Source of the DNA: Chryseobacterium fluminis
GTDB taxonomy: Bacteria > Bacteroidota > Bacteroidia > Flavobacteriales > Weeksellaceae
Reading direction: 5' to 3'
DNA: 64,000 nt
Assembly (NCBI RefSeq): GCF_026314945.1
Contig: NZ_CP111121.1
Location: 3,224,001 to 3,288,000 of the forward strand
Part shown: positions 41,264-48,020 of the stretch, in pieces
How the letters are laid out: each line of letters begins with the position of its first letter
Numbering within the stretch: position 1 is the first letter of the stretch
The notes under the pieces: generated by a model
What the model saw: the letters and a program-made list of their open reading frames with translations, nothing else
Told to the model about the DNA's origin: nothing
Databases searched by the model: none
Program-made: the position numbers and the translations under genes

Positions 41264-41298
41264 ACGTCAAGTTTTGACGTTCATGAAACATAATTTTG
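41264..41298 (+). promoter_or_regulatory. Palindrome-plus-promoter unit 1 (M15 peptidase)
   Basis: Perfect palindrome ACGTCAA-GTT-TTGACGT at 41264-41280, 10-nt gap, then -7 box TAATTTTG at 41291-41298. Its centre is 19 nt from the -7 box, as in three other copies downstream. It covers the -33 position, fitting a repressor operator or an activator site. Confidence 0.85.
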
Positions 41299-41325
41299 TT
41301 TATCAAAACATACAAACTTATAATT

Positions 41326-41826
41326 ATGGACAAAGTTAGCCTAGGAAGAATCGAAAAACTGCACCCTTATGTCAGAGAGGAAGTGAAGCAAATTATTAAA
41401 GAATGCGATGAAGCATTAGAAGGAAGAGCAAAAATCAGAATTACCCAGGGTTTAAGAAGTTTTGAGGAACAGGAAAAACTCTACGCGATCGGTAGACTGA
41501 CCACAGGAAAAAAAGTAACGAATGCCAAAGCAGGACAAAGTATTCATAACTATGGTCTTGCTGTAGATATTTGTTTAATTATTGACGGAAAAACCGCAAG
41601 CTGGGATACCGCTAAAGACTGGGATAATGACGGCGTTGCCGATTGGTACGAATGTGTAAAAATTTTTGCAAGACATGGCTGGGACTGGGGAGGAAACTGG
41701 AAAACTTTTAAAGACCTGCCGCATTTTGAAAAAAAGAATATTACTACGAAAAAAGGAGTGATTAAGACAAGCTGGAGAACTCTTTTGAAAATGACCAGGG
41801 ATAAAGAAGGATATGTTATTTTATAA
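41326..41826 (+). CDS. M15 family peptidoglycan peptidase (endolysin-like)
   Basis: 166 aa from the ATG at 41326, which lies 27 nt after the -7 box. M15 zinc ligands His74 and Asp81 (QSIHNYGLAVDI) and His133 (DLPHFEK) are present; RITQGLRSFEEQEKLYAIGR is the usual substrate-binding arm. Resembles phage-type L-alanyl-D-glutamate endopeptidases. There is no signal peptide, so it stays in the cytoplasm unless exported or released. First unit of the four-promoter regulon at 41.2-45.6 kb. Confidence 0.88.
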   Translation: MDKVSLGRIEKLHPYVREEVKQIIKECDEALEGRAKIRITQGLRSFEEQEKLYAIGRLTTGKKVTNAKAGQSIHNYGLAVDICLIIDGKTASWDTAKDWDNDGVADWYECVKIFARHGWDWGGNWKTFKDLPHFEKKNITTKKGVIKTSWRTLLKMTRDKEGYVIL

Positions 41827-42094
41827 AACTTCGGTGAATGCATGTCCGATAAAATGATTAACGGCTGATCTTTTGTACTGAAGATGTTGATAATACAGGC
41901 TTCTAAACTGTATAAAACAAAATGTATGGAAAATTCACCATCATATGATATTATAGTAGACGAAATTTTTCAGATTCTACAAATGGTTTCTGTGAAAACT
42001 AAAACCTTGGATGCTAATGGATATTATTACATACAATTAAATACTTAGAAATATTTCAAACAAATTTCCCCTTTTAGAGAATTTATTTTTTAAT
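41827..42094. other. Spacer between M15 peptidase and phospholipase unit
   Basis: Apart from the possible 40-aa frame at 41926-42048, no feature is seen. No terminator hairpin follows the M15 gene, so transcription may read on into the phospholipase unit. Confidence 0.35.
41926..42048 (+). CDS. Possible 40-aa protein downstream of the M15 peptidase
   Basis: ATG at 41926, TAG at 42046-42048; protein begins MENSPSYDIIVDEIFQIL and ends YYYIQLNT, predicted helix then strand. It is not recognised. It lies 99 nt after the M15 stop in the same direction with no terminator between, so it could be cotranscribed. Support is only an open frame and a plausible composition. Confidence 0.3.
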   Translation: MENSPSYDIIVDEIFQILQMVSVKTKTLDANGYYYIQLNT

Positions 42095-42129
42095 ACGACA
42101 AGTTCTGTCGCTTTCCGCGTCTACCTTTG
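42095..42129 (+). promoter_or_regulatory. Palindrome-plus-promoter unit 2 (patatin phospholipase)
   Basis: Imperfect palindrome ACGACAA-GTT-CTGTCGC at 42095-42111, 10-nt gap, -7 box TACCTTTG at 42122-42129. Same spacing as unit 1. Confidence 0.82.
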
Positions 42130-42166
42130 GATTGCAGAAACGCTAAAGCAATATCTATAAAAGAGC

Positions 42167-42203
42167 TAAAACCAATAGTAAAAATCATCAACTATTGGTT
42201 TTA
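42167..42203 (+). promoter_or_regulatory. Hairpin in the phospholipase mRNA leader
   Basis: Perfect 13-bp stem TAAAACCAATAGT/ACTATTGGTTTTA (42167-42179, 42191-42203) with an 11-nt loop, followed by the moderately T-rich ACTTGTCTTAGG. It lies inside the ~117-nt leader of the phospholipase gene; it could act as an attenuator or stabilise the mRNA. The U tract is weak. Confidence 0.55.
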
Positions 42204-42246
42204 CTTGTCTTAGGTTGCCAGGTTTTCTGTGAAAAAGTAAAATAAC

Positions 42247-43284
42247 ATGAAAAAAACAACCATTCTTTCTTTAGACGGGGGCGGAATACGGGGGATCATC
42301 ACCTGTATTATTCTACGCTACATAGAGGAGCAATTGCAGATTCATGATAAGCCAAGCGCCAAACTTGGTGATTATTTTGATCTGGTAGCCGGAAGCAGTA
42401 CAGGAGGTCTGATTGCGTCTATTATTCTATGCCCTGACGAACACCGAAAAGCAAAATATTCTATTCAAAAAGGATTAGAGCTATATGCTGAAAAAGGGGG
42501 AGACATATTTCAGGTCTCTTTTTGGGAAAGATTAGTAAATCCTTTTGGATTACTGAACGAAAAAATTTCTCAGGAAGCTCTTGAAAAAAATTTAAATGAC
42601 TTTTTTGGAAAGTTAGAATTAAAAGAACTGATAAAACCATGCCTGATCACCAGTTATGATATAGAGAACCGAAGAGCAAAACTTTTTAACTCCTGGAAGG
42701 CCAATGTAAGCACAGATAATTTTTATGTAAAAGATGTCTGCAGAGCTACTTCTGCTGCTCCAACCTATTTCAGCCCTGTTCAGATAAAATCGATGTACGG
42801 ACAGATTTTCAGTCTGATTGACGGCGGAATGTTTGCCAATAATCCTTCACTCTGCGCTTACGCCGAAGCCCGGAAAATATCTTTTGCAGAAGTGTTAAAA
42901 AACCATCAGAAAGCAAATCATCCGACGGTTAATGACATGATTATGATTTCTATCGGAACCGGTATCGAATCCAGGAGCTATTCATTTAAAAAAATGGAAA
43001 AATCCGGCAAACTGGGATGGGTGAATCCTATTATTGATATTTTAATGTCTGCCAATGCAGAGACTGTAGATTACCAGCTTTGTCAGATGTTTCAGACCTT
43101 GGGACTGCGGAATCAGAAAAATTACTACCGACTGAATCCTTCACTGAAAAATGCTTCTCCGGCGATGGATAACGTAAGAAGATCAAATATTGAGAATCTG
43201 ATTCAGGCCGGATTAAGTTATATAGATGATAACAGGGAAACCCTGAACCAAATTGTACAGAAACTTATTAAAAACAAAATATAA
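42247..43284 (+). CDS. Patatin-like phospholipase
   Basis: 345 aa, nearly all one patatin domain. Oxyanion loop DGGGIRG (residues 10-16), nucleophile Ser51 in GSSTGG, and catalytic Asp192 in IDGGMFANNPS form the Ser-Asp dyad. Expected reaction: release of fatty acids from membrane phospholipids. Length and layout resemble the CapV-type effectors of CBASS, but no cyclase, Cap2/Cap3 or signalling gene is near, so that role is not supported. No signal peptide. Second unit of the palindrome regulon, with a long structured leader. Confidence 0.92.
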   Translation: MKKTTILSLDGGGIRGIITCIILRYIEEQLQIHDKPSAKLGDYFDLVAGSSTGGLIASIILCPDEHRKAKYSIQKGLELYAEKGGDIFQVSFWERLVNPFGLLNEKISQEALEKNLNDFFGKLELKELIKPCLITSYDIENRRAKLFNSWKANVSTDNFYVKDVCRATSAAPTYFSPVQIKSMYGQIFSLIDGGMFANNPSLCAYAEARKISFAEVLKNHQKANHPTVNDMIMISIGTGIESRSYSFKKMEKSGKLGWVNPIIDILMSANAETVDYQLCQMFQTLGLRNQKNYYRLNPSLKNASPAMDNVRRSNIENLIQAGLSYIDDNRETLNQIVQKLIKNKI

Positions 43285-43355
43285 GCAGTTTTCCTTATAA
43301 TTATTAGATATAAGCAATTCAGCTAATATTTAAATTTAAAAATATTTCTAAAAAC

Positions 43356-43390
43356 ACGTCAAGTTTTGTCGTTCTTCGCTTCTATCTTTG
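43356..43390 (+). promoter_or_regulatory. Palindrome-plus-promoter unit 3 (small acidic protein)
   Basis: Palindrome ACGTCAA-GTT-TTGTCGT at 43356-43372, 10-nt gap, -7 box TATCTTTG at 43383-43390. Confidence 0.85.
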
Positions 43391-43460
43391 AAATATAAAC
43401 AAAGGCACAAAATACATCATTAAAAACTTTTAAACCTTATGGAATTCAACATTTATAAAT

Positions 43461-43495
43461 GCTGGACAGCCTGAAATATGTTCAAATTATAAAAC
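43461..43495 (+). repeat. Leader repeat, copy A
   Basis: 35 nt starting GCTGGACAGCC, 27 of 35 positions identical to copy B at 43773-43807. Ends 7 nt before the start codon of the 56-aa gene. Confidence 0.55.
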
Positions 43496-43502
43496 GCCAA
43501 AC

Positions 43503-43673
43503 ATGGAAACACCAAATTGCCAACCTGATATACTTTTCGATGAAGAGCTTTACACCATTGAATGGAGCGATATCGAAAATGCAGAGATAGACTATGAAAA
43601 CTATCTCAACGATATTGAAAATTTCTTCCGACAGGATTTTGAGAGTGACATTCTCGAAGAAGATATTTATTAA
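43503..43673 (+). CDS. 56-aa highly acidic protein
   Basis: ATG at 43503, TAA at 43671-43673. The protein starts METPNCQPDILFDEELYTIEW and ends ESDILEEDIY. Roughly a third of its residues are Asp or Glu with very few basic ones, so it is strongly negative. Not recognised. Small acidic proteins beside toxic enzymes often act as inhibitors or DNA mimics, but nothing here proves that. It is first in unit 3, ahead of the BspA-like gene, with no terminator between. Too short for ordinary gene callers. Confidence 0.6.
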   Translation: METPNCQPDILFDEELYTIEWSDIENAEIDYENYLNDIENFFRQDFESDILEEDIY

Positions 43674-43697
43674 ACAATTTAAACACATCGGTTCTGT

Positions 43698-43782
43698 GCT
43701 GTTCAGCCTATTCCTCAAAAACCAATAATCATTTTTATGTCTCACCACCTTTGAACTCACCATTCACAAGATGCTGAACAGC
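43698..43782. repeat. Short inverted repeat between the acidic and BspA-like genes
   Basis: GCTGTTCAGC (43698-43707) and GCTGAACAGC (43773-43782) are exact reverse complements. Each arm is flanked by AAACACA-like sequence on one side, so the element extends beyond 10 nt imperfectly. Confidence 0.5.
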
Positions 43783-43807
43783 CGGAACTGTGTTTAGATT
43801 ACAATAC
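43773..43807 (+). repeat. Leader repeat, copy B
   Basis: 35 nt starting GCTGAACAGCC, 27 of 35 identical to copy A; ends 37 nt before the next start codon. Confidence 0.55.
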
Positions 43808-43844
43808 ATCATACCATTTTATTAAATACCAACACAAAAATATT

Positions 43845-44489
43845 ATGACAACAAGAGAAAAACTAAAAAAATATTTTGAGGCCGGAGATAAGCCTACCCA
43901 ACAGGAATTTTACGAATGGCTGGATTCTTACTGGCATAAGGAAGACGCGATTCCTCAGGACTCGCTTAACATTTTATACACGCATGTAAATCCCGAAAAT
44001 TATTGGCAGGATTCAACCCTATTAACTACACCGGTTTTATGCCTTACCGTTCCTGAACAGATCAAGTCAATAGCAATTGGATCTTTTGCTTATGATACCA
44101 AAACAGAACAGATTGTGGAAGTTGTTTTTAACGACGGGTTGGAAATAATAGGAATGTTTTCATTTTACGGACAGAATATCAGGCATATTAAAACGCCCCC
44201 CAATCTAAAATCTGTTGAACCCGGTGTTTTTCAGAATCAGGAATATTATGGAGGTGCTTATGCAAGACTGGAAAAAATAACACTCAACGAAGGATTGATC
44301 AATATTGCAAGTGATGCATTCAATATTCCCAAAGCCACATTTATAAGGGATTTGTACATTCCTTCATCGGTTACCACCGTAAGTTCTAATGGTCTTGCCA
44401 TTGCTTCGTTGGAGACGGTTTCTGCACCTGCGGGTTTAAATCTGAGTACTTCAGGTATTCCCGCTAATGCTGTGATTACTTATCGATAA
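43845..44489 (+). CDS. BspA-like leucine-rich repeat protein with phage-tail-type N-terminus
   Basis: 214 aa. The first ~40 residues (MTTREKLKKYFEAGDKPTQQ then FYEWLDSYWHKEDAIP) resemble the N-terminal segment of many Bacteroidota phage or injection-system fibre proteins; this is by-eye recognition. Residues ~60-214 hold LRR_5/BspA-type repeats (IAIGSFAYDTKT, SVEPGVFQNQEYY, INIASDAFNIPKA, LYIPSSVTTVSSNGL), usually binding modules. No signal peptide. Second gene of unit 3; a target-recognition partner for the hydrolases is a guess. Confidence 0.7.
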   Translation: MTTREKLKKYFEAGDKPTQQEFYEWLDSYWHKEDAIPQDSLNILYTHVNPENYWQDSTLLTTPVLCLTVPEQIKSIAIGSFAYDTKTEQIVEVVFNDGLEIIGMFSFYGQNIRHIKTPPNLKSVEPGVFQNQEYYGGAYARLEKITLNEGLINIASDAFNIPKATFIRDLYIPSSVTTVSSNGLAIASLETVSAPAGLNLSTSGIPANAVITYR

Positions 44490-44543
44490 TTGTAGATATA
44501 AATTGAGAATATGGATTAGATTTCTTTTAAAAAAAAATAAAAC

Positions 44544-44578
44544 ACGACATATTTTGTCGCATTAAGAGCATATCTTTG
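44544..44578 (+). promoter_or_regulatory. Palindrome-plus-promoter unit 4 (WYL regulator)
   Basis: Palindrome ACGACAT-ATT-TTGTCGC at 44544-44560, 10-nt gap, -7 box TATCTTTG at 44571-44578. Its place before the regulator gene predicts autoregulation. Confidence 0.85.
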
Positions 44579-44652: not shown

Positions 44653-45573
44653 ATGAAAAAAGATTTTTACCTGACCAGATATGCCTTAATCATAAAAAGA
44701 TTAGAAAGTTCTCCGGCTACCTATTCGCAGCTGGAGGACTATCTGCTCAACTCTTTTGAATTTCAGGATGCGGGCATCAAGAGTTACTCGATCCGCACGC
44801 TGCAGAGGGATATCCGGGAAATTTCTGATCTTTTTAATCTTTCCATTCATAATAAAAAAAAGGGCGATAACCGGTATTATATCGAAAGCCGGCCCATCAT
44901 GGAAGTAGACGAATACAACCAAAAATTATTGGAATCTTTCCAGGTGAGCAATGCTTTAAATCTTCATCCGGATTTTTCAAACTTTATCTTTTTTGAAAAC
45001 CGGAAACCTACGGGAGTAGATCATTTTTATGATCTTTTCTTTGCGATCCGTAATAGAAGAATTGTCAGCTTCGAGCATTATAATTATAAAAATAAACTGA
45101 TGACCTCACGAAAAGTTCATCCGCTGGCTTTAAAAGAATCTAAAGGACGGTGGTATCTTATTGCCATCGATACTAAGGATGAAATGCTGAAATCTTTCGG
45201 ACTCGACAGAATCAATTATCTGGATGTCGATAAAAACAAATTCCGCGAAAAATACAAATACAACCTTAGAGAACATTTTAAAAATGCTTTCGGAGTGATG
45301 AACCTTGCCGAACAGAAACCTCAGCAGATTGTTATCAAATGCAGTAAACATCAGGGAGAATATATTAAAAGCTTCCCACTTCACCAATCTCAGAAAGAAA
45401 CCAAAGAAACCCTTACAGAAACTTTTTTCGAATTTTTTCTCCATCCGACTTATGACTTTATGCAGGAAATCCTTTCTTATGGAAAAGAAGTACAGGTTTT
45501 GGAACCAAAAGGTTTAGTGGATGACATCCGCAATCACCTGCAGGAATCCCTGAACAAATATTTTGAAAATTAA
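44653..45573 (+). CDS. WYL-domain transcriptional regulator
   Basis: 306 aa. N-terminal winged helix-turn-helix (about 10-80, with SIRTLQRDIREISDLFNL as recognition region), WYL domain (~125-195, with Trp167-Tyr168-Leu169 in KGRWYLIAID), and a WCX-type C-terminal domain. WYL regulators bind palindromes as dimers and often repress defence or stress genes, responding to nucleic-acid or nucleotide ligands. Preceded by the fourth copy of the palindrome, so it most likely controls the whole 41.2-45.6 kb set and itself (inference). Confidence 0.92.
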   Translation: MKKDFYLTRYALIIKRLESSPATYSQLEDYLLNSFEFQDAGIKSYSIRTLQRDIREISDLFNLSIHNKKKGDNRYYIESRPIMEVDEYNQKLLESFQVSNALNLHPDFSNFIFFENRKPTGVDHFYDLFFAIRNRRIVSFEHYNYKNKLMTSRKVHPLALKESKGRWYLIAIDTKDEMLKSFGLDRINYLDVDKNKFREKYKYNLREHFKNAFGVMNLAEQKPQQIVIKCSKHQGEYIKSFPLHQSQKETKETLTETFFEFFLHPTYDFMQEILSYGKEVQVLEPKGLVDDIRNHLQESLNKYFEN

Positions 45574-47261: not shown

Positions 47262-48020
47262 TTATAGATCTTTCCCTAAAAAATAGAGCCCTTTTAAGGT
47301 GTGCAGCCGGTCCATTAAATGAATTTTATCCGTTAATGGTTTATAGACATGGGAAACTCCACCGGTAGCGATGACGAAACAGTCATCATTCACCTCATCA
47401 TTAATTCTGTCGACAAATCCTTCTACCATTCCTAAAAAGCCGTATACCATCCCGCTTTGCATACAGCTTACGGTATCTAATCCTAATACGGTTTCCGGTT
47501 TTTTTAATTCAATTTCAGGGAGTTGGGCGGTCTGACTGATGAGAGAATTCAGCGCTGTAATAATTCCAGGGGCAATAATGACACCCAGGGATTCTCCGGT
47601 TTCCGAAATGCAGCTGGCTGTAAGTGCTGTTCCAAAATCGAGAACAATCTTCTTTCTTCCCGGATAAAGCATGTGTGCAGCTACCAGATTGGCATAAATA
47701 TCGGTTCCTCTCGACTTTGATTTTGCCTTAACGACAGACGGTGTCGTACTGTCAACAATTACCGGATTTATGCTATGAATTTTCCTTATTGCCGCACTCA
47801 TTACTTTTGTAAGCTGAGGGACCACAGAGCCGATGATTACTCTGTCAATGTTTTCCGGTTCAACTTTATAGGTCTGGTACAGCATGAGCATCTGCACATA
47901 TAATTCGTCTGCGGTTCTGTACGGTTTTGTATTGATGACCCAGGATATATCACAATTGTCATCATCAAAAAGACCAAATCTGATATTGCTGTTTCCTACG
48001 TTGATTACGATTGAATTCAT
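47262..48020 (-). CDS. coaX: Type III pantothenate kinase
   Basis: 252 aa. ATP-binding NVGNSNIRFGLFD, IGSVVPQLT, RGTDIYANLVAAHMLYPG, DFGTALTAS and GIITALNSLISQTAQLP are the family blocks. Phosphorylates pantothenate, the first step to coenzyme A. Single gene. Confidence 0.95.
   Translation of the reverse strand: MNSIVINVGNSNIRFGLFDDDNCDISWVINTKPYRTADELYVQMLMLYQTYKVEPENIDRVIIGSVVPQLTKVMSAAIRKIHSINPVIVDSTTPSVVKAKSKSRGTDIYANLVAAHMLYPGRKKIVLDFGTALTASCISETGESLGVIIAPGIITALNSLISQTAQLPEIELKKPETVLGLDTVSCMQSGMVYGFLGMVEGFVDRINDEVNDDCFVIATGGVSHVYKPLTDKIHLMDRLHTLKGLYFLGKDL

Follow-up and report, generated by a model that had tools for sequence, protein, structure and literature searches.

A palindrome at a fixed distance from the -7 box is probably the operator of a DriD-like WYL activator of antagonism genes in Chryseobacterium

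Introduction

Which regulator acts on four promoters that carry the same palindrome in Chryseobacterium fluminis? The promoters lie in a stretch of 64,000 nucleotides (assembly GCF_026314945.1, contig NZ_CP111121.1, positions 3,224,001 to 3,288,000), the whole of which is called the window below. In each promoter a 17-bp palindrome precedes a TAnnTTTG box, the -7 box, and the fourth promoter belongs to a gene for a WYL-domain transcription factor. A first-pass annotation of the letters regarded the four promoters as a regulon of this WYL protein. The analysis described here indicates that the palindrome is probably the operator of the protein, acting as an activator of a set of antagonism genes in the manner of DriD of Caulobacter crescentus.

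To our knowledge, little has been learned about how polymorphic toxins are regulated in Bacteroidota, and the DNA-damage response of flavobacteria without LexA is, as far as we know, an open question. No such regulon was recognisable in the titles and abstract openings of the open-licence PMC papers listed on WYL, LexA/SOS, DriD and polymorphic toxins in Bacteroidota. Papers are cited below by PMC number.

The operator-promoter unit

The four palindromes are located where the first-pass annotation had placed them (Table 1); each is 17 bp long and imperfect. The distance between palindrome and box is exactly 10 nt at all four sites, the TAnnTTTG boxes are present as claimed, and the palindrome overlaps the -33 region, as had also been noted. 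The consensus ACGWCAA fits three of the sites, and the fourth, ACGACATATTTTGTCGC, departs from it by one mismatch at position 7. Allowing up to three mismatches, the palindrome alone has 16 matches in the window against a mean of 8.4 in shuffled sequences, and 2 of 100 shuffles reach 16. This over-representation is mild, and statistics from the window only are weak.

The whole genome (5.07 Mb) was searched using the reversed sequence as the control. The pattern of the first-pass annotation with a spacer of 9-11 nt occurs 3 times without mismatches (0 in the control), and with up to three mismatches 21 matches are present against 1. A refined consensus, RCGWCRAGTTTTGWCGY-N10-TANNTTTG, was derived from this genome's own matches; it gives 15 matches with up to three mismatches (0 in the control) and 14 sites with up to two. 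The composite of palindrome, 10 nt and box is non-random. The relaxed palindrome without the box shows 42 matches over both strands (21 places) against 28 in the control. As this exceeds the control only to some extent, the -7 box belongs to the signal. In the genus, the refined unit with up to two mismatches is present in 146 of 148 genomes, with 0-26 sites per genome and 5 control matches in total. The search for palindrome, 10 nt and box that had been proposed for the genome and its relatives thus yields a genome-wide and genus-wide set, in which the four window sites are a minority. The earlier idea that four odd genes make one functional unit holds for the common operator, but it is too narrow, since the genome has 14-15 such promoters.

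The 10-nt spacing is rigid, in agreement with the earlier suggestion that the fixed phasing is under selection. When spacers of 3-22 nt were allowed, exactly 10 nt was found in 149 of 150 rows among the matches listed, and 9 nt in one (counted by eye). A second sample consisted of 80 named loci, which are the best 80 of 148 relatives found by a genome scan and belong to Chryseobacterium or Weeksellaceae metagenome-assembled genomes. There the distance is 10 nt in 198 cases and 4 nt in 4 cases, and no other distance occurs across 0-30 nt.

Another palindrome, ACGACAGACGGTGTCGT at window positions 47731-47747, is intragenic and has no box. It was excluded from the site count and is probably a chance match.

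The WYL protein as regulator

The first-pass annotation named the WYL protein as the regulator of the sites. According to its co-occurrence with the sites in the genus and in the order, it is very probably so. An orthologue (E up to 1e-50) is present in 146 of the 148 genus genomes; sites are missing from exactly two genomes, G059 and G104, and these are the two without the gene. These two also lack the RHS-operon lead protein and the patatin described below, both of which are present in the six other genomes tested. G059 and G104 may be sister lineages, and thus the absence of gene and sites is possibly one event. The sample of the order comprised 246 genomes. Sites are present in 34 of them and a WYL homologue (E up to 1e-30) in 43; every site-bearing genome is one of the 43, and no site occurs in the 203 genomes without a homologue. 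Outside the genus, sites are present in 12 of 21 genomes with a homologue versus 0 of 202 without; Fisher tests on this co-occurrence ignore relatedness.

The site is upstream of the WYL gene in all 80 named loci and, with up to three mismatches, in 31 of 33 loci examined (25 of 25 in the genus and 6 of 8 outside it). Five genomes of another family bear sites. In three of them the WYL gene is behind the site: it follows directly in L106, comes second in L108 and lies at a distance of 3.3 kb in L109. In the remaining two the WYL matches are on different contigs from the sites. A site before the WYL gene would also be expected if the sites were a promoter class of another regulator or sigma factor, with the WYL gene as merely one target. 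That explanation is very unlikely, because the distribution of the sites follows that of the WYL gene from family to family, with no site in the 203 homologue-free genomes, and because in three of the five genomes of the other family a site stands upstream of this gene or of the operon that contains it.

Two observations count against the WYL protein as the regulator. In genome G062 (75% complete), the only WYL copy has four internal stops, yet 14 sites are present. Moreover, 9 of the 43 genomes of the order with a homologue have no site at up to two mismatches; at one locus of such a genome (L139), a diverged palindrome with four mismatches precedes the WYL gene.

Interrupted or partial WYL genes were observed in relatives at G062:C1:2156505 (the sole match there), at G117:C25:10892, and on G066:C5 and C15; those of G117 and G066 are extra copies. 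The window protein is 99% identical to its counterpart in Chryseobacterium sp. JUb7, and its own genome contains one WYL match at 1e-50. No second WYL gene is present at the locus, the following gene being without a Pfam match; no search was made for more distant WYL proteins elsewhere.

Genes downstream of the sites

The downstream genes were analysed at 77 sites of five genomes: 14 of C. fluminis (up to two mismatches), 21 of G031, 17 of the 18 counted in G086, 15 of G002 and 10 of G145. A member of a recurring family is present within four genes downstream at 62 of the 77 sites and absent at 15, one of which has no frame at all under the frame rule applied. The families are patatins (12), RHS-operon lead proteins sorted by the type IX secretion system (11), 'TLFRF' carriers of about 1250 aa (11), the acidic protein (11), M15 peptidases (9), GDKPTQ-type proteins (8), WYL proteins (7) and others; as a point against the proposed regulon, the families were chosen with the very sites on which they are counted and clustered neighbour sites share downstream genes, so the tally is descriptive and not a test. 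Formally, the unit does stand before many genes genome-wide, a distribution that the first-pass annotation would have held against a regulon. Since most of the site-linked genes belong to recurring families, however, the wide spread enlarges the regulon and does not refute it.

The RHS-operon lead protein has a Por_Secre_tail sorting domain. Rhs_assc_core is over the cut-off in 3 of 5 target proteins scanned in C. fluminis, DUF6443 was found in 4 of 8 target proteins scanned, and RHS_repeat is over the cut-off in 2 of 8. Among the targets of relatives, the toxin domains Tox-REase-7 (8.9e-17, L154) and Tox-MPTase4 (2.4e-15, L177) are over the cut-off, EndoU (L103) and Toxin-deaminase (L101) are under it, and 11 of 20 proteins scanned show no domain match. 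Thus the targets have polymorphic-toxin content, as RHS cores or known toxin domains. No N-terminal signal peptide is evident by eye in the carriers, the M15 peptidase or the patatin, which suggests that toxin release might be by lysis.

The RHS-lead search of the own genome gave nine match rows, two of which are pieces of one split copy. In the seven copies whose upstream region was checked, three have a site with up to two mismatches, three have a site with four mismatches, and one has a palindrome without a good box. The stop-split copy at G000:C2:253724-255276, outside the window, has a promoter palindrome without a good -7 box. One degenerate site (ACGACTTATTTTGTCGC...) recurs unchanged in front of three RHS-lead operons of this genome, as would be expected if the sites were one promoter copied along with duplicating or moving toxin operons, without regulatory meaning. 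We regard such copying as a most improbable source of the sites, because the spacer sequence varies while operator and box are constant in a matrix of 294 distinct sites (selected by operator and box, so that only the spacer variability is informative), and because the targets include unrelated genes.

In five of five genomes, a site is followed by a protein with a length of about 233-247 aa (L020:8228-8926, with equivalents in L145, L159, L168 and L179), which seems to belong to the core of the regulon; the own copy of 239 aa has no Pfam and no PHROG match. For the carrier of 1244 aa, a reading as an effector of a type VI secretion system or extracellular contractile injection system was rejected, as no family match was found in Pfam, PHROGs or PADLOC. 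The best 120 of its 239 homologues are mostly unnamed or hypothetical, and the visible organisms are nearly all Chryseobacterium. Two source names among these 120 mention a TcA C-terminal TcB-binding domain (once) and MACPF (once) (P0077, P0103); the carrier itself has no Pfam match to a TcB-binding or MACPF domain.

Three further observations were made in relatives. At L058:7113-8299, an RHS-type gene is in pieces, separated by two frames similar to the transposase pair of IS3-type elements. Related proteins that start with IVLLEGKR follow the site in a distant family (L107:6559-7203 and L108:9259-9921); they are similar to proteins of SLOG/DprA-type fold. In another distant genome, operon frames between the site and the WYL gene (L109:10688-11735) are similar to DUF262/GmrSD, a defence-type gene.

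Features of the window

The features are collected in Table 1. Behind the four sites, in order, are the M15 peptidase, the patatin, the small acidic protein followed by the LRR protein, and the WYL regulator. The patatin scores 163 bits against the NCBIfam model CBASS_lipase (CBASS, cyclic-oligonucleotide-based antiphage signalling system), under the 200-bit cut-off. A PADLOC scan of four window proteins and three proteins of one relative matched the phospholipase and the WYL protein only; cyclase genes and genes of the bacteriophage exclusion system (BREX) were not looked for in the remaining window.

Table 1. Operators, -7 boxes and genes of the locus (window positions).
Feature	Positions	Strand	Remarks
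Operator 1, ACGTCAAGTTTTGACGT	41264..41280	+	window sequence
-7 box, TAATTTTG	41291..41298	+	10 nt past operator 1
M15 peptidase (166 aa) of the phage-type endolysin family	41326..41826	+	Pfam Peptidase_M15_4 1.1e-18; PHROG endolysin 3e-30
Operator 2, ACGACAAGTTCTGTCGC	42095..42111	+	window sequence
-7 box, TACCTTTG	42122..42129	+	10 nt past operator 2
Patatin-like phospholipase (345 aa), a relative of the effector phospholipases of CBASS	42247..43284	+	Pfam Patatin 3.2e-25; PADLOC phospholipase effector 8.1e-63
Operator 3, ACGTCAAGTTTTGTCGT	43356..43372	+	window sequence
-7 box, TATCTTTG	43383..43390	+	10 nt past operator 3
Small acidic protein (56 aa) that recurs in the cluster	43503..43673	+	39 of the 67 named loci of full length have a homologue
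LRR_5-domain protein with GDKPTQ..WLDSYWHKED start, 214 aa	43845..44489	+	Pfam LRR_5 7.9e-15
Operator 4, ACGACATATTTTGTCGC	44544..44560	+	upstream of WYL regulator gene, autoregulatory position
-7 box, TATCTTTG	44571..44578	+	10 nt past operator 4
WYL/WCX transcription factor with N-terminal winged helix-turn-helix, 306 aa, predicted regulator	44653..45573	+	Pfam WYL 1e-13, WCX 5.2e-8

Comparison with DriD

In operator and promoter geometry, the closest relative of this regulon is the DriD response. DriD is an activator triggered by single-stranded DNA (ssDNA); its operator is ACGAC-N7-GTCGT, and a site lies before driD itself (PMC12340889). The half-sites and their spacing are the same in the Chryseobacterium matrix of 294 sites. 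In both systems the operator is over the -35 region at a fixed distance from the -10 region, and the autoregulatory site before driD has its equivalent before the WYL gene. The TA of the -7 box corresponds to -12/-11 in Flavobacterium (PMC6847099). When the Caulobacter promoters were scanned with the 294-site matrix, the place that fits N10 was the best match in didA and driD. Both proteins consist of winged helix-turn-helix (HTH), WYL and WCX domains; in the window protein WYL and WCX are over the cut-off, and its whole chain was aligned to DriD. The predicted model has an N-terminal helical HTH-like part, and its top fold match is DriD (Foldseek, VIA; DriD in PDB entries 8tp8, 8tpk and 9pfq). 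Four tested features of DriD were found in the Chryseobacterium system, and a fifth, the arginine pair considered next, was not found complete.

The following points weigh against a protein of the DriD kind. In PafBC and SiwR, the binding of ssDNA depends on an RxxR arginine pair of the WYL domain, as determined by mutation (PMC11804915, PMC10693628). Both arginines are present in the aligned DriD chain, whereas the family has FGLDR or FALDR in eight of eight aligned members, and FGLDR in all 80 named loci. Only the second arginine is thus retained, and one ssDNA-contact arginine of DriD is Gly or Ala. At the position of PafB R204 the window protein has Asp, according to an alignment read by eye. 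Since the arginine pair is half present, the protein may have a ligand other than ssDNA. The quality of the model is moderate (mean pLDDT 75.9), and the superposition on full-length DriD is loose (251 residues, 12.4 Å). The Foldseek E-value of PafBC (9fnd_X, 1.7e-13) is practically level with that of DriD (TM-score 0.35 vs 0.50), and by sequence of the WYL/WCX part PafBC (2.8e-18) beats DriD (8tp8, 5e-12), these being profile scores and not a tree. In the bapE promoter of Caulobacter, the place that fits N10 is the third-best match, with a negative score. No obvious DNA-repair gene was seen by eye among the regulon genes looked at.

The two systems also differ in content and host. The genes activated by DriD are few (didA, bapE, recJ and dnaG), whereas the 14-15 promoters here serve toxin, endolysin, phospholipase and other genes. 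The host of DriD is an alphaproteobacterium with LexA; Chryseobacterium belongs to the Bacteroidota, has no LexA over the cut-off and uses a different -7 box.

Taken together, the WYL protein probably works like DriD, activating transcription, and from the computed features we infer the following steps. A WYL dimer would bind the palindrome at about -39 to -23 and would help RNA polymerase to start at promoters that have a good -7 box and a -33 region occupied by the operator. The mode would be that of Caulobacter DriD, with the same operator and the same 10-nt offset to -12. The protein would occupy its own promoter too. The genes under the 14-15 promoters would form an antagonism set of RHS and other polymorphic-toxin operons, large carriers with variable partners, the phage-type endolysin and the CBASS-like phospholipase. 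The signal would most likely be ssDNA from damage or phage attack, and the endolysin and phospholipase may lyse the cell and release the toxins that have no signal peptide.

Other known systems

PafBC of mycobacteria is the nearest solved chain to the window protein by sequence and the second in Foldseek. Its sites are not known to be symmetric palindromes of the Chryseobacterium kind. PafBC is a WYL activator of the damage response via sigma adaptation and a heterodimer of two WYL proteins (PMC11804915), in contrast to the one WYL gene of the window locus. SiwR of Mycobacterium smegmatis is a WYL homodimer and an activator, with an imperfect palindrome between -35 and -10; the arginine pair R-x3-R of its HTH (R38/R42) corresponds to R48/R52 in the window protein (PMC10693628).

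BrxR and CapW gave VIA scores below that of DriD against the window protein. They are WYL repressors of BREX and CBASS with the same domain order and a defence-gene association, and we know of no rigid promoter phasing for them. The first-pass annotation left open whether the site serves a dimeric repressor or an activator. A repressor of the BrxR/CapW type would cover the -33 region and release it on sensing phage or damage. Such a repressor should tolerate varied box distances, but the distance is 10 nt in 149 of the 150 rows listed and in 198 of 202 cases in the named loci. Operator and position equal those of the activator DriD, and the BrxR and CapW chains appear in the fold search, with none at 1e-3 in the family-profile search. 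The rigid spacing and the DriD match favour an activator, and we consider the repressor rather unlikely.

LexA is a repressor, and the colicin and pyocin regulons under LexA combine damage-linked toxins with lysis functions, a logic that the Chryseobacterium set would share. LexA over the cut-off is found in 0 of 148 genus genomes versus 6 of 14 control genomes (9 ring). Matches under the cut-off occur in 30 of the 148, mostly as unassigned frames with a length of about 155-165 aa, with one in G059. As LexA is a repressor and none is over the cut-off here, the control would be unlike that of colicins and pyocins. We tentatively propose, as a possibility short of the activator model itself, a LexA-free, colicin-like programme of Chryseobacterium and its relatives. 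In it, one DriD-like WYL activator would respond to DNA damage or phage attack with the joint expression of secreted and cytoplasmic polymorphic toxins and of an endolysin and a phospholipase, the latter two lysing the producer cell and so setting the toxins free, by a promoter code common to two phyla.

The comparison provides a named candidate regulator, with an operator that can be searched for in any genome and by which unannotated toxin families can be found from their promoters. The two species without regulator, sites and both target families tested are natural deletion strains. The match to the promoter code of DriD extends across phyla: if it is true, the same operator and promoter geometry serves the damage checkpoint of Caulobacter, and one WYL promoter code is used in two phyla.

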